Below are positions 3,586-31,311 of a stretch of 36,033 nt of DNA, piece after piece (within the stretch, counting starts at the first letter, position 1; every line of letters begins with the position of its first letter). The stretch comes from Dehalococcoidia bacterium (GTDB lineage: Bacteria; Chloroflexota; Dehalococcoidia; GIF9; AB-539-J10), in NCBI GenBank assembly GCA_030605665.1, contig JAUWHW010000038.1, positions 1 through 36,033 of the forward strand. Reading direction: 5' to 3'. The notes beneath the pieces are model-generated. The model was not told the origin of the DNA. It worked only from the letters and a program-made list of their open reading frames with translations, and searched no databases. Made by a program: the position numbers and the translations under genes.

Positions 3586-4662
3586 TCAATACCTTGTGCT
3601 GGCTGACCACATAGGTAACACTTGAGGTGAACCACGGACTCTGATCAATTCCCTCTCAATATAGTCAATTGGAGTCAGGTAATCAAGCGCTTCGTGGGGT
3701 CGGTTGAAATTATACTCTACTAGCCATTCAGTCAACTGTCGGTTAAACCTATCGCAATCCAGAACTAAATTGCCATCATAAAGCCATTCATATTCTAAGG
3801 TCTGGTGGAATCTCTCAATCTCAGGATTGTCCTTGGGTGTCTTTACCCTGGAGAAGTATCTGGCTATATTGAGATTAGAGGCTGCTCTTTCAAAGTAGTA
3901 AGCAAATTCAGAACCGTTATCAGTCTGGATGTTCTCAATCGGTTGGTTAATAAGATACTGTAGTCGATAGAGAAAATCAGATGCAGCCTTTGAGCTTCTG
4001 TTCTTGTACATCCTGGCATAACCTAATTTACTGGCATGATCCACCGCGGTGAGGATATATCTTTTAAGGTTACCCCAGTATATTACTATGGTGTCGAGCT
4101 GCAGCAGAAACCACAGCCGGGTCTCTTTCCTGAGTTGGGTTATTCTCCTTTTAGGCTTCTGTCTGGCTCTGGCTTGTTTCCTGGCTATCCTTTCTGCCCT
4201 TACCTTGTCTGGATAAATCTTGTGCTTTCGGATTACTCTTTCTATCTTCCAACAGGAGATATCTTCCTTATACTCCTTCTCATAAAGGACCTTGAGTTTC
4301 TTCTTACCGTAGTGGATATGCTCCTTTCGAAGCTTCTTTATCCTGCTTTCCTGAATTAGGGTTACCTCCCAGTTCCTCTTGTGGCAAGGTGCCCTGGATT
4401 GGTCCTTTAAGCTCTCTATTCTCTCCAGACTATCCTTGAACCGATTGAGCCACTTATGAAAAGTCTTTCTGGATATACCAAAATGTCTGGCAGTGAAACT
4501 TGCGTTCTGCTTCGCCTGGGTATAGTAGAATACCATCCATTCTACTCTTAACCTCTCTCTTGCTGAAAGTTGCAAGAGTTCTGCAACTCCTCTCCACCTC
4601 TCATACTTACTCTTTAATTTTATCGGTTTTCTTTTAAAATAATAGAAGTTTTCCTTTTCCAT
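3586..4662 (-). CDS. DDE (rve-domain) transposase
   Basis: A 358-residue transposase that looks intact. The N-terminal third has a helix-turn-helix (ARHFGISRKTFHKWLNRF at about 58-75) for binding the ends, then a basic linker (KQARARQKPKRR). The C-terminal integrase core carries the acidic triad: Asp in LQLDTIV, Asp in IQTDNGSEF and Glu in NPEIERFHQTL, with 34 residues between the second Asp and the Glu. The closing NRPHEALDYLTP block is typical of IS481 and IS3 transposases. A single uninterrupted gene with no upstream orfA favours the IS481 group. The start ATG at 4662 is clear. Neighbouring inverted repeats support a complete mobile element, and no frameshift or internal stop is seen. Confidence 0.9.
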   Translation of the reverse strand: MEKENFYYFKRKPIKLKSKYERWRGVAELLQLSARERLRVEWMVFYYTQAKQNASFTARHFGISRKTFHKWLNRFKDSLERIESLKDQSRAPCHKRNWEVTLIQESRIKKLRKEHIHYGKKKLKVLYEKEYKEDISCWKIERVIRKHKIYPDKVRAERIARKQARARQKPKRRITQLRKETRLWFLLQLDTIVIYWGNLKRYILTAVDHASKLGYARMYKNRSSKAASDFLYRLQYLINQPIENIQTDNGSEFAYYFERAASNLNIARYFSRVKTPKDNPEIERFHQTLEYEWLYDGNLVLDCDRFNRQLTEWLVEYNFNRPHEALDYLTPIDYIERELIRVRGSPQVLPMWSASTRY

Positions 4663-5429: not shown

Positions 5430-6887
5430 ATGCCAAAGTGGCAAGGGCAACTTGTTAAGATAGACGATTATCATTGGGAAATTCCTCAGAGCTACAAAGA
5501 TGGCATGAGAGTTCCCGGTTTAATCTACACTAGCCAGGAGATGCTGAAGTCCATACGTGAGGAACAAACACCAGAGCAAGTTGCTAACGTAGCTTTTCTT
5601 CCTGGAATAGTTAAATTCTCTTTTGCTATGCCAGATATTCACTGGGGTTATGGCTTCCCTATAGGTGGAGTTGCGGCTATGAGTGTCAAGGATGGCGTAA
5701 TTTCCCCTGGTGGTGTGGGTTATGATATTAATTGCGGTGTAAGATTATTACGTACCAACCTCAATGAAGCCGAAGTAAGGCTTAAGATTAAGCAGCTCGT
5801 TAATGAGTTATTTGCTAATGTGCCATCCGGTTTGGGTTCTGAAGGAAAGATTAAGGTAAGCCAGAAAGAGATGAAAGAATTAATGATTGAGGGAGCGCAT
5901 TGGGCTGTGAAGCATGGCTTTGGCTCTAAAGAGGACTTGGATGCTACTGAAGAGAATGGGTGCATGAAGGGCGCTGACCCCAGTAAGATAAGCGATAGAG
6001 CGATAAAGAGAGGCATGCCTCAAACAGGCACATTAGGTTCGGGAAATCATTTCCTTGAAGTTCAAGTAGTAAAGGAGATCTTCGAACCTGAGATAGCCAG
6101 TGTTATGGGTATTAACGCAATAGGACAAATATTAGTCCTGATCCACACTGGTTCTCGAGGTTTCGGGCACCAGGTGTGCACTGACCATCTGCGTGTGATG
6201 GAAGAGGCAGCATCAAAGTATGGAATAAGACTTCCTGATCGCCAACTTGCCTGTGCCCCTATAGAATCGAAGGAGGGGAAGGATTATTTGGCTGCTATGG
6301 CCTGCGCTGCCAATTATGCCTGGTGTAACCGGCAATGTATTGTTCATTGGGTTAGGGAAGGTTTTTCTAAAGTCTTCGCTAAAACTCCTGAAGACCTTGG
6401 CATGAAGCAGATTTACGATGTGGCACACAACATTGCCAAGATAGAGGAACATGTGGTGGAGGGGCAGAAACTTAAGCTTTGTGTGCACCGCAAAGGAGCC
6501 ACCAGAGCTTTCCCGCCTGGGCATAAAGATATTCCGCAGAGGTATAAGGAGATAGGGCAACCTGTCCTTATCCCGGGTGATATGGGTCGTTGCTCTTTTA
6601 TTGCTGTAGGCACTCAGCAGGCTATGGCAGAAAGCTTTGGGTCTACCTGTCATGGTGCTGGTAGAGTGATGAGTCGCCATGCCGCTAAGCGAATCTTAAG
6701 AGGTAAGGATGTGGCTCAAGATTTAGAAAGGAGGGGTATCACTGTTAAGACAGGAAGCATACCATCCTTAGCTGAAGAAGCATCTCAAGCTTACAAGGAT
6801 GTTGCTGAGGTGATAGAGGTTTGTCATCAAGCTGGCATTTCCAGGAAAGTAGCCATGGCTGTTCCATTAGGTGTTATCAAGGGCTAA
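5430..6887 (+). CDS. rtcB: RNA-splicing ligase RtcB
   Basis: Joins RNA 2',3'-cyclic phosphate (or 3'-phosphate) ends to 5'-OH ends using GTP and Mn(II), in tRNA or stress-related RNA repair. At 485 residues it is the standard bacterial/archaeal length. Manganese and GTP motifs are all visible: DINCGVR at 99-105 (Cys102), GSGNHFLE at 203-210, HTGSRGFGH at 239-247, HRKGATRAFPPG at 353-364 and CHGAGR at 407-412, in which His408 corresponds to the guanylylated histidine. A GGGGGTG ribosome-binding site precedes the ATG. The adjacent archease is its activating partner. Nothing looks degraded. Confidence 0.96.
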   Translation: MPKWQGQLVKIDDYHWEIPQSYKDGMRVPGLIYTSQEMLKSIREEQTPEQVANVAFLPGIVKFSFAMPDIHWGYGFPIGGVAAMSVKDGVISPGGVGYDINCGVRLLRTNLNEAEVRLKIKQLVNELFANVPSGLGSEGKIKVSQKEMKELMIEGAHWAVKHGFGSKEDLDATEENGCMKGADPSKISDRAIKRGMPQTGTLGSGNHFLEVQVVKEIFEPEIASVMGINAIGQILVLIHTGSRGFGHQVCTDHLRVMEEAASKYGIRLPDRQLACAPIESKEGKDYLAAMACAANYAWCNRQCIVHWVREGFSKVFAKTPEDLGMKQIYDVAHNIAKIEEHVVEGQKLKLCVHRKGATRAFPPGHKDIPQRYKEIGQPVLIPGDMGRCSFIAVGTQQAMAESFGSTCHGAGRVMSRHAAKRILRGKDVAQDLERRGITVKTGSIPSLAEEASQAYKDVAEVIEVCHQAGISRKVAMAVPLGVIKG

Positions 6888-6895
6888 ACGTTATT

Positions 6896-6925
6896 TGTCA
6901 TTCTGAGCGTAGCGAAGAATCTCGC
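6896..6925 (+). repeat. Interspersed repeat, TCATTCTGAGC...GAAGAATCT half-unit
   Basis: The bases between rtcB and the nitroreductase ATG are almost entirely one copy of the dispersed repeat seen elsewhere in the window (13253-13347, 14865-14968, 23443-23512, 25879-25947). It therefore forms the 5' leader of the nitroreductase gene and replaces any recognisable strong ribosome-binding site. Confidence 0.8.
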
Positions 6926-7564
6926 ATGAAGCAAACTGTAATAAAACTTCCCTCTCCAAAACTAAAAAGCAAGATTTCGCTAGAAGAGGTTATAGCCAAG
7001 CGCAGGTCAATTCGCAAATATCGCACAGAGCCACTAACCCTATTTCAATTAAGTCAAGTACTTTGGTCTGCTCAAGGCATAACTGGGGCTGGCAAACATA
7101 GAGCAGCACCTAGTGCTGGAGCTACTTATCCTCTGGAAATCTTCGCTTTCGTTGGCAAAAAAGGTGTTAGCTACGAGCAAGCGAAGCAACCTAAAGAGGA
7201 ACTGCAAGCTGGCATTTACCACTATGAAGTAAACAGTCATTCACTGGTTTTACACCTGCCGGGCGATTTAAGGGAAGAGTTAGCTAGAGCAGCTCTGGAC
7301 CAAGGGTTTATTGCCAATGCACCGGTAGATATTGTTATCTGTGCCCTTTATATAAGGACCTCCTATAGATATGGCAGGCGGGGTGAGAGATATGTTCACG
7401 TGGAGGTAGGGCATGTAGGGGAAAACATCCACCTTCAAGCTGTAGCTTTGGGATTAGCTACAGCGGAAGTAGGTGCTTTCGATGACGAAGAGGTAAGGAA
7501 AGTTCTGGGAGTGGAGGAGCAGATTAAGCCTCTGTATATCATGCCCATTGGCAAACCACTGTAA
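6926..7564 (+). CDS. SagB-type nitroreductase/dehydrogenase (FMN-dependent)
   Basis: Member of the nitroreductase superfamily, SagB-like branch: FMN-dependent oxidoreductases with varied substrates. The 212-residue product has ISLEEVIAKRRSIRKY (about 17-32) for FMN phosphate binding, LSQVLWSAQGITG (about 41-53), APSAGATYPLEI (about 59-70), RYVHVEVGHVGENIHLQ (about 155-171) and a C-terminal LYIMPIGKPL. The ATG at 6926 is chosen because upstream residues (HSERSEES) come from the interspersed repeat and overlap rtcB. A hydrophilic stretch, SYEQAKQPKEE, near residue 80 is longer than I expect for the family and may be repeat-derived. Substrate unknown; no SagC/SagD-type partners are near, so a role in azole peptide formation is not supported. 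Confidence 0.85.
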   Translation: MKQTVIKLPSPKLKSKISLEEVIAKRRSIRKYRTEPLTLFQLSQVLWSAQGITGAGKHRAAPSAGATYPLEIFAFVGKKGVSYEQAKQPKEELQAGIYHYEVNSHSLVLHLPGDLREELARAALDQGFIANAPVDIVICALYIRTSYRYGRRGERYVHVEVGHVGENIHLQAVALGLATAEVGAFDDEEVRKVLGVEEQIKPLYIMPIGKPL

Positions 7565-9636: not shown

Positions 9637-11250
9637 TCAGTCCTTTGCTTTCCCCGCTTGCTTTGTCAGCCAGTATTCTATGCTGTCTGCCAGAGCTAGC
9701 CAACTAGCTTCAATGATATTGGCTGAGCTGCCTACGGTTCTCCAGTGTTCCTTGCCGTCACTGGATTCGATAAGTACTCGCACCTGTGAGGCAGTGCCCG
9801 CGGTTTCTTCAAGTATACGCACCTTGTAATCGGTGAGCTCCACAACAGTCAGGTCGGGGTAGAATTGAATTAAAGCTTTGCGTAAAGCCTGGTCAAGTGC
9901 ATTGACTGGTCCATTACCTTCAGCAGCGGTATGTACTATCTTATCACCCACCTTAACCTTGATGGTGGCTTCTGATAGTGGCTCCTCTTGATTTCCACTA
10001 CTAGGAGGGCGACGGCGTTTCTCCATCACCACCATAAAATCAACTAGCTCAAAGGGTGGCTGGTAGTGGGGTTGAGCACGATGGAGTAACAAGTCGAACG
10101 ATGCTTCAGCGCTATCGTATTGAAAGCCCTGATTTTCTAGCGATTTAACCTGTTCTAGCACTCTGGCAATTCCTTTATTTCCAGGGAGAGGCAATCCACG
10201 CTCCTTAGCTTTGTAGATAATACTCCCCTTACCCGCTAGCTCAGAGATGATAACATGAGGACGATTACCCACTAGCCTAGGATTTATATGCTGGTAACTA
10301 TCTTCCCATTTTGCTAAACCAGAAACATGCATTCCGCCTTTGTGGGTAAAAGCACTGGCGCCCACATAAGGAAGCCTCTCATAAGGAGGCAAATTAGCTA
10401 TCTCAGATACATAGTGGGAAACATCACTAAGCTTATTTAGCTGTTTGTTAGTAACACAATCAATGCCCATCTTAAGTTTCAGAGTTGGAATGATAGAACA
10501 AAAATTGGTGTTGCCACAGCGTTCACCATAGCCATTGATGGTTCCTTGGATCTGAGTAGCGCCTGCCTGAACGGCGGCTAAAGAGTTAGCTACAGCAACT
10601 TCAATGTCGTTATGAGCATGGATACCCAAAGAGACAGGTGTCATTGCGAGCGAAGCAAAGCAATCCCGAACGGCTTCAACAGATTCTGCTATTTGTTGCG
10701 GTAAAGTGCCTCCATTAGTATCACAAAGGATGATACATTCGGCGCCAGCTTTAGCAGCGTGGGTAACAACCTCGAGCGCATATTTAGGATTCCCCTTATA
10801 GCCGTCAAAGAAGTGCTCGGCATCGAAGAAAACCCTGAGCCCATTTGCTCTCAGGTAACCAATAGAATCCGTGACCATATTGAGATTTTCTTCTAATGTA
10901 GTTTCCAGAACTTGGGTTACTTGCTTATCCCAGCCTTTGCCTACAATAGTGACCACCTTAGTTTTAGCCTCTAACAGAGCTTTAAGGTTAGCATCTTCTT
11001 CTACCTTACAATTTGAGTGTCTAGTGCTGCTAAAAGCAACTATCGTGGCGTGGTTTAAATTCAATTTCCGTGCCTGGATAAAGAATTCAGTATCTTTGGG
11101 GTTAGAGCCAGGCCAGCCACCTTCAATGAAGTCAATGCCTAGCTCATCTAATTTCTGAGCAATCTTCAATTTATCCTCAACGGAAAAGGAAATCCCCTCC
11201 TGTTGGGTTCCATCCCTTAAAGTTGTGTCATAAAGCTGTATACAAATCAC
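9637..11250 (-). CDS. cimA: (R)-citramalate synthase
   Basis: Condenses pyruvate with acetyl-CoA to citramalate, the first step of threonine-independent isoleucine synthesis; LeuCDB then give 2-oxobutyrate. The 537-residue protein has the DRE-TIM catalytic barrel (LYDTTLRDGTQQEGISFS at 6-23, ILCDTNGG at 174-181, GIHAHNDIEVAVANS at 209-223, NGYGERCGNTNF near 240-251) and a C-terminal LeuA dimer/regulatory domain from about 410. The GTQQEGI and GWPGSNPKD segments mark CimA rather than LeuA. The start is GTG at 11250 with GGTGGAG 6 bases away. Residues 195-206 (RDCFASLAMTPV) are encoded by an interspersed repeat and form an insertion before the GIHAHND motif. It is the last intact gene of the long minus-strand cluster. 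Confidence 0.93.
   Translation of the reverse strand: MICIQLYDTTLRDGTQQEGISFSVEDKLKIAQKLDELGIDFIEGGWPGSNPKDTEFFIQARKLNLNHATIVAFSSTRHSNCKVEEDANLKALLEAKTKVVTIVGKGWDKQVTQVLETTLEENLNMVTDSIGYLRANGLRVFFDAEHFFDGYKGNPKYALEVVTHAAKAGAECIILCDTNGGTLPQQIAESVEAVRDCFASLAMTPVSLGIHAHNDIEVAVANSLAAVQAGATQIQGTINGYGERCGNTNFCSIIPTLKLKMGIDCVTNKQLNKLSDVSHYVSEIANLPPYERLPYVGASAFTHKGGMHVSGLAKWEDSYQHINPRLVGNRPHVIISELAGKGSIIYKAKERGLPLPGNKGIARVLEQVKSLENQGFQYDSAEASFDLLLHRAQPHYQPPFELVDFMVVMEKRRRPPSSGNQEEPLSEATIKVKVGDKIVHTAAEGNGPVNALDQALRKALIQFYPDLTVVELTDYKVRILEETAGTASQVRVLIESSDGKEHWRTVGSSANIIEASWLALADSIEYWLTKQAGKAKD
10636..10670 (-). repeat. Interspersed repeat (TCATTGCGAG type) inside cimA
   Basis: The plus strand shows TCATTGCGAGCGAAGCAAAG followed by CAATCCC, the well-known second flavour of the dispersed repeat. 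On the coding strand it is read in frame as RDCFASLAMT. It adds roughly ten residues in a barrel loop without breaking cimA. Confidence 0.8.
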
Positions 11251-12121: not shown

Positions 12122-13213
12122 TCAATGTTGCTTTATCCACTCGGCAATCAAGTCTCCTGTTTCCTTTGTCCCTACTTTGATTTTTCCTGCGCTCATTATA
12201 TCGTAAGTTCTATAATCCTGCTCCAAGATAGCAATAACGGCATTTTCTATGGCTTGGGCTTCAGTTTCCAATTCAAACGAATGGTGGAGCATCATAGCCA
12301 CACTTAATATAGTGGCGATAGGGTTAGCCATGTTTTGCCCTGCTCGCCGTGGAGCGCTGCCATGAATTGGTTCGTACATACCAAATGCCTTCCTCTTAGG
12401 AATTCCAGCTAGGCTAGCTGAGGGTAACATACCCATAGAGCCAGCCAGCATTGAAGCCTCATCGGTAAGAATATCACCAAACATATTTTCGGTGACTAAA
12501 ACATCAAATTCACTAGGATGCTGGATAAGTCGCATAGCGCAGGCATCAACTAGCATATGCTCCAATTCGACATCAGGATAATCAGCGGAAATTTCCATGG
12601 CAATTTGCCGCCATAGTCGCGATGATTGGAGTACATTAGCTTTATCAACTGAAACTAACTTTTTATGGCGGCTACGGGCTAACTCAAAACCAACCCGCAA
12701 TATGCGTTCAATCTCTGCTTCAGAATAAGCCATGGTATCAACAGCCTGCCTTCCCTCTGAGCTTCGCCATTGCTTTTTAGGCTGTCCAAAATAAAGCCCT
12801 CCCGTGAGTTCCCTTACTATGACTAAATCAACTTCTTCAATTATCTCTGGTTTGAGTGAGGTGGAGTTAATCAGCATAGGTAAAACTTTTACTGGACGCA
12901 AATTAGCAAATAGCCTTAATCCCTTCCTTAGAGCTAAGAGCCCATCTTCAGGATGGACTTCTGCTTTGGGGTCATCCCAGTTTGATCCACCAACAGCACC
13001 AAGCAATACAGCATCACATTGTTTGCACATATTTAGTGTTTCTTCGCTGAGAGCTGTGCCCAAGGTATCTATGGCAACACCACCTACTAAACCTTGATGT
13101 AAATGGAACCTATGCCCGAACTTTTCGCCTACAGCCTGCAAAACTTTCGTTGCCTCAGCTATAACCTCAGGTCCAATACCATCGCCAGGTAAAACCGCTA
13201 CATCAAATTCCAT
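12122..13213 (-). CDS. leuB: 3-isopropylmalate dehydrogenase
   Basis: Oxidises and decarboxylates 3-isopropylmalate to 2-oxoisocaproate with NAD, and the analogous 3-methylmalate in the citramalate route. The 363-residue product opens [17 protein letters not shown], with [10 protein letters not shown] near 74-83, [10 protein letters not shown] near 98-107, the YSEAEIERI block, and the decarboxylating-dehydrogenase signature [20 protein letters not shown] near 245-264. A longer frame to 13252 exists, but its extra 13 residues come from the interspersed repeat; ATG at 13213 follows GAGGG at good spacing. It lies between leuD and the crotonase gene on the same strand. Confidence 0.96.
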
Positions 13214-13252
13214 ACCTATTCCCTCATTCCTCGCTGTGTCATTCTGAGTCAT

Positions 13253-13347
13253 CGTTTATCATTCTGAGCCCTTCGCTTTCTGTCATTCTGAGGAAGCGAA
13301 GCGACCGAAGAATCTCGGAAACCCTTCGCTATCACTCAGGGTGACAG
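13253..13347. repeat. Interspersed palindromic repeat cluster between leuB and leuD
   Basis: The whole leuD-leuB spacer is occupied by repeat units: a short TCATTCTGAGCCCTTCGC piece, then a fuller copy with TCATTCTGAGGAAGCGAAGC, GACCGAAGAATCTC and a closing ACTCAGGGTGACA arm. The outer arms (TCATTCTGAG and CTCAGGGTGACA) are roughly complementary, so the RNA can fold into a hairpin within the operon transcript. Confidence 0.8.
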
Positions 13348-13865: not shown

Positions 13866-14324
13866 CTAATGGGTACTAAAATCATTGTATGGGGCATTCA
13901 ATGCCAAAGCTGCATAGATCTCAAACAGTGCTTGGGTAACTTGGTCATCAACTTGTATGACGCGTATTTTCATTTGAACAACACGGTTCTTCGCTTCAAA
14001 AAAGGCCTTATCGAAACCTGGGGCTTGCTCCAATTCTTTGCGTGTAACATAGCCAGGGATCCCTTTAGCACGCATCTTCTCCTTGGCTAGATTGAAAGCA
14101 AATGAGGCACTATTGTGTGTTGAACTCAACCTGCCATGCTCTTGAAGCCGTGTCCTCAGTCGATTAGATCGCCCCACATAGAGAGCTTTATCATTCTCGT
14201 AAAATACATAGACGCCCGACTTGGGAATGGCAACAAGATTTTCCCGCGTTCGAAAAGGTTGAGACTCCAGACTCTGAAGCAATCCCGGCATCTTTGCTAC
14301 CAATTCGTCAAATTTCATGTTCAT
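13866..14324 (-). CDS. GIY-YIG nuclease family protein
   Basis: A 152-residue protein with a GIY-YIG endonuclease core: SGVYVFYENDKALYVGRSN (about 36-54) supplies the two tyrosines, NRLRTRLQEHG (about 54-64) the catalytic Arg, and FEIYAALAL near the C-terminus the metal-binding Glu. It has a small N-terminal helical region and no obvious DNA-binding extra domain. The start ATG at 14324 follows AAGGAG inside the end of leuC, 7 bases downstream of the leuC stop, so it is translated as part of the leu operon. Its target is unknown; UvrC or homing-enzyme function is not supported. It separates leuC from leuD, probably as a late guest in the operon. Confidence 0.85.
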   Translation of the reverse strand: MNMKFDELVAKMPGLLQSLESQPFRTRENLVAIPKSGVYVFYENDKALYVGRSNRLRTRLQEHGRLSSTHNSASFAFNLAKEKMRAKGIPGYVTRKELEQAPGFDKAFFEAKNRVVQMKIRVIQVDDQVTQALFEIYAALALNAPYNDFSTH

Positions 14325-14331
14325 CTAAGTA

Positions 14332-15693
14332 TCATCGACTCCTTTGAAGGACTTCTTCAGGATCGGCGATCCTGCCTAGAATAGCGCTGGCGGCAGCTAC
14401 AGCTGGTCCAGCCAAGTAGACTTCAGACTTGGGGCTTCCCATCCTACCGACAAAATTGCGGTTGGTAGTGGATAGGCAGCGCTCACCAGCAGCTAAAACT
14501 CCCATATGTCCGCCAAGGCAAGGTCCACAAGTAGGAGTGCTTACCACAGCCCCAGCCTCTATGAAAATTTCTATCAATCCCTCTCTTAATGCATCAAGAT
14601 AAACCTTCTGTGTGCCCGGGATGATAATGCATCTAATTTCTGGATGTATTTGCCTTCCTTTGAGCAATTTAGATGCTACCCTCAAATCATCAAGACGACC
14701 ATTGGTGCAACTGCCAATTACCACCTGATCTAGTTTTATGTCATCTACCTGACTTACAGGTTTAGTATTAGAAGGAATATGAGGGAAAGCTACCTGGGGC
14801 TCGATTTTTGATACGTCATACTCGATAACCCTAGCGTATTCAGCATTTTCGGCTGGCTGAGATTCTTCGCTTCGCTCAGAATGACAGGGAGCGAAGGGCT
14901 CAGAATGACAGGGAGCGAAGGGCTCAGAATGACAGGGAGCGAAGGGCTCAGAATGACAATGACGAGAGTGCTCCTTTACATATTCTTTAGTTTTATCATC
15001 CACACTGAAGATACCTGCCTTAGCTCCCGCTTCAATGGCCATATTTGCCATAGTGAAGCGTCCATCTATTGATAGCTCGTCGATTGCCTCGCCAGTAAAT
15101 TCCATAACTGAATAAAGAGCACCATCCACACCAATATCGCCAATGGTATAAAGGATGAGGTCCTTACCACCAATCCATTTAGGTAATTTTCCGTGGTAAA
15201 TAAACTTAATGGTTTCTGGTACCTTCATCCATATTTCTCCTGTCGCCATAGCCACGGCGATATCGGTTGAGCCCATACCAGTAGCAAAAGCACCTAAAGC
15301 ACCGTAGGTGCAAGTGTGAGAGTCAGCACCAATGATAACCTGGCCAGGCAAAACAAAGCCTCGCTCAGGCAGAAGCACATGCTCTATCCCCATCCGCCCT
15401 ACCTCAAAGTAAATTATTCCCTGCCCCTTAGCAAACTCCCGCATCAACTTTGCTTGCTCGGCAGATTGTATATCTTTGTTGGGGCAAAAATGGTCAGGAA
15501 CCATAACTACTTTTCTAGGGTCGAAAACTTTAGATATCCCGAGCTTACGGAACTCCTTTATGGCTAAAGGTGCTGTTATATCATTGGACAAAACCAGGTC
15601 AACTTTGACATTTATAAATTCGCCGGGGCTGATTTCCTTCTTATCACTATGGGCTGTTAAGATTTCCTCAACTAAGGTCAAATTGCCTCGCAA
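14332..15693 (-). CDS. leuC: 3-isopropylmalate dehydratase large subunit, with repeat-derived insertion
   Basis: Aconitase-superfamily [4Fe-4S] enzyme that isomerises 2- to 3-isopropylmalate and citramalate to 3-methylmalate with LeuD. Cluster cysteines are in IGSCTNGR and [30 protein letters not shown] (about 124-142) and the C-terminal [11 protein letters not shown] are also seen. At 453 residues it is about 30 longer than its homoaconitase-like relatives. The excess is residues 243-279, three copies of CHSEPFAP followed by CHSERSEES, encoded by interspersed repeats and placed in a loop before [12 protein letters not shown]. The reading frame is kept. The start is uncertain: TTG at 15693 or TTG at 15681 (behind GAGG). 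Confidence 0.93.
14865..14968 (-). repeat. In-frame 24-bp tandem repeat array inside leuC
   Basis: Three exact head-to-tail 24-base units (14877-14900, 14901-14924, 14925-14948), each starting CAGAATGACAGGG on the plus strand, are followed by a partial fourth and preceded by a TTCGCTTCGCTCAGAATG unit. Each unit derives from the interspersed TCATTCTGAG repeat. The period is a multiple of three, so copy-number change would alter LeuC by 8 residues at a time without a frameshift. Confidence 0.92.
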
Positions 15694-23442: not shown

Positions 23443-23512
23443 CTCGTGTCACCCTGAGCGAAGCGAAGGGTCTCCAAGATTCTTCGGTCGCTATGCTCCC
23501 TCAGAATGACAC
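23443..23512. repeat. Full-length interspersed palindromic repeat (about 68 bp)
   Basis: Begins GTGTCACCCTGAGCGAAGCG, continues with AAGGGTCTCCAAGATTCTTC, and closes CTCAGAATGACACC. The outer arms are complementary, so it can fold on itself. It is the near-perfect reverse complement of the copy at 25879-25947. It overlaps the end of sua5 and provides its TGA stop codon. Confidence 0.88.
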
Positions 23513-25878: not shown

Positions 25879-25947
25879 TGGTGTCATTCTGAGGGAGTGT
25901 AGTGACCGAAGAATCTTAGAGACCCTTCGCTTCGTTCAGGGTGACAC
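25879..25947. repeat. Full-length interspersed palindromic repeat (about 68 bp)
   Basis: Starts GGTGTCATTCTGAGGGAGTG, continues ACCGAAGAATCTTAGAGACC, and closes TTCAGGGTGACAC. It sits right after guaA, is the inverted mate of 23443-23512, and its hairpin may terminate or stabilise guaA mRNA. Confidence 0.88.
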
Positions 25948-30375: not shown

Positions 30376-31311
30376 ATGTTTGTTTTGTTACAAACCAATT
30401 TATCTCTTCGCTTACTGCGACGTGGCAAGGTAAGAGATATTTATGACCTTAAAGATAAACTCCTTATAGTGGCTACCGACCGTATCTCCGCCTTCGACTT
30501 TGTCCTACCTTGCGGCATCCCCGACAAAGGAAAGGTTCTTAACCAACTCTCAGCTTTCTGGTTTGAGAAGACTGCCCATATTATGCCTAATCACCTTATC
30601 AAGGTAATTGACAGCAGTGCCATTCTGAACGAAGTGAAGAATCTGTCAGGCTATTCTGCAGAGTTCCCCGATTACCTCATAGGGCGTTCCATGATTGTGG
30701 TTAAAGCCGAGCGCATTCCTGTAGAATGCATTGTTCGAGGCTACCTAGCTGGCTCGGCCTGGGCGGAATACAAAGAAACTGGTACCGTGGGTGATGTTCG
30801 CTTACCACCGGGGATGAAAGAAAGTCAAGTATTGCCCCAACCTATGTTTACTCCTACTACCAAGGGCGAGACAGAGCATGACCGCCCCTTAACTAGTCAG
30901 GATATAAGGAATCTTGAAGAAATGTTTGCTGCGAAACGGAAGCAAAGCAATCTCAATTTGATAAAGGAATTAGAGGAGGAAAGCTTGCTCATTTACCGCT
31001 ATGCACAGGATTATGCTAAAAGCAAGGGCATTATAATTGCCGACACCAAGTTTGAGTTTGGATTTATCAATGGTGAACTAGCTCTTATAGATGAGCTACT
31101 AACGCCGGACTCAAGTCGATTTTGGGATGTCAGTCAGTATGAAGTGGGGCACTCGCAACCCAGCCTTGACAAACAACCAGTGCGGGACTGGCTTTTAGCT
31201 TCAGGGTGGAATAAAAAGCCGCCAGCGCCCATGTTACCACCGGAGGTAATCGAAGCCACCACACAGCGCTATAACAAAATCTACCAACTACTTACAGGGG
31301 AATGTATCTAG
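30376..31311 (+). CDS. purC: Phosphoribosylaminoimidazole-succinocarboxamide synthase, carrying repeat-derived insertions
   Basis: SAICAR synthetase, joining CAIR and aspartate with ATP. The 311-residue protein contains RRGKVRDIYDL (about 15-25), ATDRISAFDFVLPCGIP (33-49), the signature VECIVRGYLAGSAWAEY (116-132), and DTKFEFGF plus the LIDELLTPDSSRFW block. It is of the longer yeast-like type. Residues 82-93 (AILNEVKNLSGY) and 184-194 (FAAKRKQSNLN) are encoded by decayed copies of the interspersed repeats and are extra relative to what I recall of the family. The frame is intact and catalytic motifs remain, so it is likely functional. Only a weak ribosome-binding site precedes ATG at 30376. 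Confidence 0.94.
   Translation: MFVLLQTNLSLRLLRRGKVRDIYDLKDKLLIVATDRISAFDFVLPCGIPDKGKVLNQLSAFWFEKTAHIMPNHLIKVIDSSAILNEVKNLSGYSAEFPDYLIGRSMIVVKAERIPVECIVRGYLAGSAWAEYKETGTVGDVRLPPGMKESQVLPQPMFTPTTKGETEHDRPLTSQDIRNLEEMFAAKRKQSNLNLIKELEEESLLIYRYAQDYAKSKGIIIADTKFEFGFINGELALIDELLTPDSSRFWDVSQYEVGHSQPSLDKQPVRDWLLASGWNKKPPAPMLPPEVIEATTQRYNKIYQLLTGECI
30619..30654 (+). repeat. Decayed TCATTCTGAG-type repeat inside purC
   Basis: The plus strand reads CATTCTGAACGAAGTGAAG then AATCTGTC, a few substitutions from the ATTCTGAGCG...GAAGAATCT repeat core. It encodes residues AILNEVKNLS within PurC. Confidence 0.7.
30925..30957 (+). repeat. Decayed TCATTGCGAG-type repeat inside purC
   Basis: The segment GCGAAACGGAAGCAAAGCAA followed by TCTC resembles the second repeat flavour seen in cimA (GCGAGCGAAGCAAAGCAATC). 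It encodes AAKRKQSNL in a helix of PurC. Shorter and less certain than the other copies. Confidence 0.5.

Follow-up and report, generated by a model that had tools for sequence, protein, structure and literature searches.

How a tandem repeat comes to lie in frame within leuC is the question raised by a Dehalococcoidia contig (JAUWHW010000038.1), which was analyzed over a single stretch of 36,033 nucleotides (hereafter the window). Palindromes that code for protein are best known from Rickettsia. The array and its surroundings were compared with those of relatives, all of which are draft genomes. Most probably the insert is one copy, now coding for protein, of a family of REP-like palindromic repeats, and the sites that such repeats occupy undergo turnover.

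The array in leuC

leuC (14332-15693, minus strand) encodes the large subunit of 3-isopropylmalate dehydratase as a 453-aa ORF without internal stop, in which the array lies in frame. The product matched TIGR02083 in two stretches (685 bits) and also PF00330, and its closest fold was 4kp1, the large subunit of the M. jannaschii IPM isomerase (TM 0.92 by target length). Of the aligned stretches in the best PDB alignments, one stopped just within the insert and the next started past it. Read on the minus strand, the array consists of three identical 24-bp half-units TGTCATTCTGAGCCCTTCGCTCCC (14887-14958; singly 14935-14958, 14911-14934 and 14887-14910), similar to half-units found outside LeuC in relatives, and then a full REP-like unit TGTCATTCTGAGCGAAGCGAAGAATCTC (14859-14886), a type with many copies in relatives. 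The full unit has a TGTC tag (14883-14886), a hairpin (14862-14882) and a CTC tail (14859-14861). TRF reported 14874-14958 with period 24, 3.5 copies and 100% matches. Together, the units encode CHSEPFAP three times and CHSERSEES, residues 246-278 (33 aa), and the window LeuC loop is 70 aa long vs. 42 aa in uninserted relatives, a net gain of 28 aa.

An earlier sequence-only reading had described an array of exact 24-bp units in leuC, which the TRF result and the in-frame ORF bear out; the limits it gave (14865-14968) were a few bases off the correct span of 14859-14958, and its estimate of about 37 added residues was too high. Its description of a palindromic repeat within a loop, with the frame kept and the enzyme apparently intact, agrees with the uninterrupted ORF. 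So does its statement that the cluster cysteines are preserved with the alignments: C329, C389 and C392, which we take to be these cysteines, were invariant among both 47 and 78 sequences. It had also proposed structure prediction of the loop. AlphaFold2 with the 78-sequence alignment gave a pLDDT of 89.7, with values <50 only at 247-250 and 252-273 (this replaced an earlier model from 47 close relatives, pLDDT 42.5), and the loop with its insert is predicted to be disordered.

The nearest LeuC relative (P0002, from another record) was 89% identical and had two non-identical half-units in its loop, with both insert junctions in common at the protein level. The three identical units therefore probably postdate the split from P0002, as the sequence-only reading had supposed in calling the expansion recent. 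The last step was likely a recent amplification in which slippage or unequal exchange brought the 24-bp half-unit to three identical copies. By its LeuC relatives the window falls near Dehalococcoidia (Chloroflexota). The best named loci reached 82% identity to the window LeuC, over its N-terminal part, and the insert of the window was absent from all 72 readable LeuC sequences among 80 loci.

Repeat copies across the window

The window contains 10 occurrences of the core GTCATTCTGAGC at <=1 mismatch, where 0.13 would be expected, and 11 hairpin-shaped copies were observed against 0.54 expected, two of which (16849 and 27897) look like chance. A second coding copy (SSAILNEVKNLSG; 30622-30642, plus strand) was placed in purC, in sense, by the hairpin scan with ORF and Pfam reading. 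Pattern and ORF reading placed a third, of the ATTGC type, in the gene for citramalate synthase, CimA, where it is antisense (10643-10664, plus strand; DCFASLAMT). Core and hairpin scans found a single full copy (6896-6923, plus) at the start of a nitroreductase-like ORF (6821-7564) that reads through the repeat (6821-6928, plus); its real start may be the Met after it.

Pattern and hairpin scans recovered three inverted pairs. Between leuB and leuD (13237-13346), half-units are followed by a long-form copy (13285-13313, plus) and an inverted ACCCT copy (13321-13342, minus); the leuB ORF as called opens within repeat DNA (13211-13252, minus), and its true start may be a later Met. The other pairs combine an ACCCT copy (plus) with a long ATTCT copy (minus) at 23447-23511, and a long ATTCT copy (plus) with an ACCCT copy (minus) at 25882-25946. 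Tags faced outward in 3/3 inverted pairs, counted in the window only.

Two further genes were also noted. An IS481-like transposase gene lies at 3586-4662 (minus), and the hairpin scan found no repeat copy between position 1 and 6899, the stretch that holds it. A 152-aa protein with a GIY-YIG domain is encoded between leuC and leuD (13866-14324, minus); its gene, which adjoins leuC, was considered as that of a homing enzyme and dropped, no relative being found in the loci searched.

The repeat family and its hairpin

At <=2 mismatches the pattern TCATTCTGAGC-NNANCGAAGAATC had 94 copies in genome G002 and matched 6/14 genomes, and the reversed-pattern control gave 0 in all 14. The string TCATTCTGAGCGNAGCGAAGAATC was present in 12/30 genomes of the family of G002 (<=1 mismatch) and in 11/16 chosen relatives, and the longer form and the ATTGC-stem form were each found in 10/16 genomes searched (controls 0). 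Four plasmid records matched, the best being Planktothrix at 75% identity; phages gave no match, nor did viral contigs searched with one exact pattern. In some genomes of the Dehalococcoidia the TGTC-tagged hairpin element reaches tens of copies.

Stem covariation was evident in G002, where 18 of 22 two-mismatch copies had both changes at paired positions. Among 60 copies from three genomes, selected for five paired stem positions, 50 had the stem ATTCT and 10 had ATCCT, ACTCT or ACCCT; these stems open with an A-T pair, followed by T-A or C-G. A TGTC tag preceded 56 of the 60, and the tails of those listed were mostly CTC, CTA or CTG. The apex reads GC-GNA-GC, with N free. As a single strand, the element would be expected to fold into a 5-bp stem, a tandem G.A, two G-C pairs and a GNA triloop, and the longer form would have one more module added. 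Mini-hairpins with GNA loops and at least two G-C pairs are described as extraordinarily stable and nuclease resistant in the available part of the source (PMC4686876).

The computed DNA fold of the full unit had the expected shape. The DNA folding energies of three typed full units were no better than those of shuffles (z = 0.19, 0.44 and 1.38), and folding energy was therefore rejected as proof of the hairpin, which is argued instead from the covariation and the published GNA mini-hairpin. The half-unit alone folded better than shuffles as DNA (z = -3.5), and the leuC array as RNA gave z = -1.84.

Half-units followed by a full unit occurred at several loci of G002 (mostly 24-bp spacing) and G009 (mostly 23-bp), some of these loci having been selected through repeat searches. 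Groups with at least two units accounted for 7/63 in G042, 11/92 in G002 and 8/94 in G061, with at most 3 units, over 1.16 Mb of these three genomes. Apart from the window, a four-unit array was seen only at one G009 locus (L091: three half-units and a full unit, in 23-bp steps). Since half-unit arrays with 23- or 24-bp steps exist outside LeuC, 24 bp is the native step of the repeat and was not set by the reading frame, contrary to the proposal of one entry followed by frame-set expansion; 24 bp is a length that a gene tolerates.

The LeuC loop among relatives

LeuC proteins were ranked by likeness to the inserted query, and of the best 120 of at least 8000 scored, 18 were dropped and 102 measured. 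In 102/102 the protein had 193 aa before the loop and 140 aa after it; the loop itself ranged from 33 to 96 aa and carried all length variation between the anchors. Among these close LeuC proteins, 85/102 loops exceeded the uninserted class in length, which speaks against the single-entry history assumed by the sequence-only reading. Classes assigned by peptide patterns comprised 38 loops of ATTCT type in frame 1, 34 of ATTGC type, 3 of ATTCT type in frame 2, 6 with another palindrome, 4 other and 17 uninserted. No antisense-like peptide occurred in the 102 loops, though antisense frames are also open.

At the DNA level, the loops of G042, G047, G044 and G045 held elements of the ATTCT type, both short and long, and of the ATTGC type, in more than one frame; among the readable loci, G053, G058 and G056 held decayed types and others had uninserted loops of 42 aa. 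A closely related empty site was not caught among the relatives compared. On a tree built without the loop, at least 20 changes were required among all classes; shuffled labels averaged 52, so kinship matters too. For the three main classes (75 proteins) the minimum was 14 changes, or 12 after 32 weak nodes were collapsed. Outside the loop, differences between the window gene and eight relatives were mostly at third positions (33/13/146 at positions 1/2/3 vs. L134). According to the search tables, some LeuC and CarA matches carry stops.

Other sequences also occupy this loop. A different palindrome fills it in one group, namely L136 (ATCCTGAATCAAGTTCAGGA, peptide ILNQVQDQ), P0070, P0074, P0075, P0078, P0079 and P0087. 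An unrelated tandem repeat (VCGGRVYSAGLCGGRVYSAGLCGG...) was seen there in L041, a Desantisbacteria MAG (MNUO01000093.1), so this permissive place holds a second sort of repeat in a separate lineage.

Copies in other enzymes

Copies were counted as ORF-internal when they lay within an ORF of 120 aa or longer and had 50 aa of it to either side. By this measure 14/46 copies were internal in G042 (364 kb), 16/70 in G061 (398 kb) and 0/59 in the more distant G002 (394 kb); the stretches were chosen for known repeat matches, which makes the fraction meaningful and the density not. From these fractions, colonization of coding DNA looks lineage-dependent. The 30 internal copies sit in 26 ORFs, one of them LeuC; the other 25 were scanned, and 24 had a Pfam family and one had none. 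The enzymes, named from their Pfam domains, include PheT, AroC (two copies), IspH, PurC, HisG, CobU, CarA, PyrK, TilS, RecG, BirA and guanylate kinase. By our own count, 22/30 copies were flanked on either side by sequence that matched Pfam or belonged to LeuC, 7/30 were not, and the HisG copy (1/30) was ambiguous. In some of the 7, guanylate kinase and RecG among them, the copy lies ahead of the first domain, and the true start may come later. In the window, purC and the citramalate synthase gene likewise carry in-frame copies. In the lineage sampled, about one copy in four is in frame within an ORF, for the most part in a loop or linker of a core enzyme.

Individual sites were compared for orientation. 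In the CarA linker (read in 10/18 loci) the element was in sense in 8/8 occupied genomes, although it varied in frame and in type (ATTCT, short or long, and ATTGC), and the site was empty in G053 (two loci). The MTTase site (read in 7/20 loci from 6 genomes) held antisense elements of different types in 3/3 pattern-detected genomes (G061, G042 and G043); G060, G058 and G041 have what look, by eye only, like decayed antisense remnants. PurC copies in the window, G042 and G061 were all in sense, and the PurC loop held the ATTGC-type VIARAESPKQSQ in G042 (L202 / L222:5411-6400) and an LNEVKNL type in the window, G061, G058 and G053. Inserts at LeuC, where read, were likewise in sense. Judged from these sequences, insert orientation looks like a property of the site, while type and frame differ.

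Comparison with known repeats

Among the nearest described repeats are the CGTC REPs, for which the available text of Di Nocera et al. 2013 (PMC3733652) reports no transposase, TGTC variants and the inclusion of Rickettsia RPE-4 and RPE-6, and leaves open whether any transposase moves them. As described there, they share with the present repeats an unpaired tag at one end (TGTC, like CCTC, being a stated variant of CGTC), a first stem pair A-T, intragenic copies, inverted pairs facing outward as in the window and, for the present repeats by a search for Y1 transposases, the lack of an associated transposase. They differ in having an 8-9 bp stem that begins A-T, T-A and a 4-5 nt loop, where ours has 5 bp, a tandem G.A, 2 bp and a 3-nt GNA loop, and in a CCA tail where ours is mostly CTN. 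Because the stem, loop and tail descriptions depart from theirs, the repeats were filed as CGTC-REP-like and not as members. In the part of that source available, CGTC repeats are listed in five phyla, Chloroflexi not among them, and GTAG repeats are listed for Chloroflexi. GTAG REPs and REPINs are likewise short palindromes in many copies, often in inverted pairs (GTAG features as given in the available part of PMC3733652); unlike those with a RAYT, the present repeats have a TGTC tag and no Y1 transposase was found beside copies.

A RAYT/Y1 transposase as the mover found no support. Y1 transposase genes (PF01797) occurred in 3/13 and 5/18 genomes and were not found in G002, G015, G061, G044, G047 or G048, several of them repeat-rich, an absence that is weak in drafts. 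When 12 loci with Y1_Tnp genes were scanned with a 10-nt arm pattern, one loose match was obtained (L195) and otherwise no flanking copies.

The sequence-only reading had likened the insert in spirit to the Rickettsia palindromic elements, and this holds in that in-frame palindromic repeats lie in intact genes. Protein-coding palindromes are known from Rickettsia, where RPE-4, RPE-6 and RPE-1 are short palindromic repeats, in frame, in ORFs whose proteins are likely functional; of the intragenic inserts in that survey, over half consist of dimers or grouped repeats (all from the available part of PMC3733652). By analogy of character, the copies in LeuC, PurC and CimA would be elements of this kind, being palindromic, in frame and in an intact gene. 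The phylum is different, and here several repeat types share a loop, with one orientation per site read. The closest precedent seen for common insertion sites comes from two Xanthomonas species, whose recB genes have REPs in nearly the same position (PMC3733652, as far as available). In the open-access literature searched, the peptide HSERSEES occurred in no paper; the repeat DNA strings matched only a miRNA paper, and no related account of Dehalococcoidia palindromic repeats was found (PMC13390414 is unrelated), as far as the texts were available.

Origin and turnover of the inserts

The repeats are presumably mobile and the leuC insert is presumably translated. Each full unit can be read without a stop in four or five of its six frames (ATTCT forms, 2/3 in each orientation; ATTGC form, 3/3 in sense and 2/3 in antisense), and the LeuC loop is predicted to be disordered. 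The insert is probably neutral for the enzyme. The LeuC loop would have been occupied for long, its resident being repeatedly replaced or extended by other types, with orientation kept and type and frame not. If a resident element is replaced in place, orientation should stay fixed as type and frame change, which is the pattern seen. Tentatively, occupied protein loops could act as exchange cassettes: once a TGTC-tagged hairpin is present, the ends it shares with later types would let these overwrite it through template switching or gene conversion, so that the encoded peptide and even its frame are exchanged at an unchanged position and orientation.

The loops may instead be hotspots for independent de novo insertions, with an enzyme inserting in a fixed orientation at each site and no replacement, which we regard as rather unlikely. 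LeuC inserts do match the searched repeat patterns (0 mismatches in G047 and G045, 1 in G042), the loop of the Desantisbacteria MAG took up an unrelated repeat, and ORF-internal copies are biased to sense (25/33; one-sided binomial 0.0023, with copies treated as independent). A general sense bias, however, leaves the antisense MTTase site unexplained; orientation is constant at each site read while type and frame change, and the CarA inserts of G061, G044, G041, G042 and G043 share, by eye, a related upstream half-unit.

An assembly artefact or chimera is very improbable: repeats are prone to misassembly, but P0002, a separate record with a longest contig of 19066 bases, has both junctions at the protein level and the ORF stays in frame. 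It is just as improbable that the insert is adaptive, its Cys-His units binding metal or tuning the Fe-S enzyme. The window insert does contain four Cys-His pairs, which the sequence-only reading had pointed out; many relatives' inserts, however, read SLRGASATKQSQ or VIARSEATKQSQ without such pairs, uninserted loops exist, and repeats of the same kind are found in unrelated enzymes, so that a Cys-His metal site was rejected. Least credible is simple slippage within leuC's own sequence that owes nothing to a dispersed repeat, which would fit the identity of the three units but is refuted as sole origin by half-units and full units elsewhere in the window and in relatives (reversed controls 0) and by other repeat types at the same LeuC place.

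Implications

The repeats can mislead start-codon calls, and database peptides such as ILNEVKNL may be translated repeat DNA. As different repeat types lie at the same enzyme sites in relatives, the origin, turnover and cost of repeat-derived segments can be traced step by step. If the tentative reading of exchange cassettes is true, a Chloroflexota lineage would keep rewriting surface segments of its core enzymes with peptides derived from repeats, and would do so with no transposase dedicated to the task. Relatives carry different repeats at the same spots of several core enzymes, which suggests that repetitive DNA is taken up time and again into functioning proteins.
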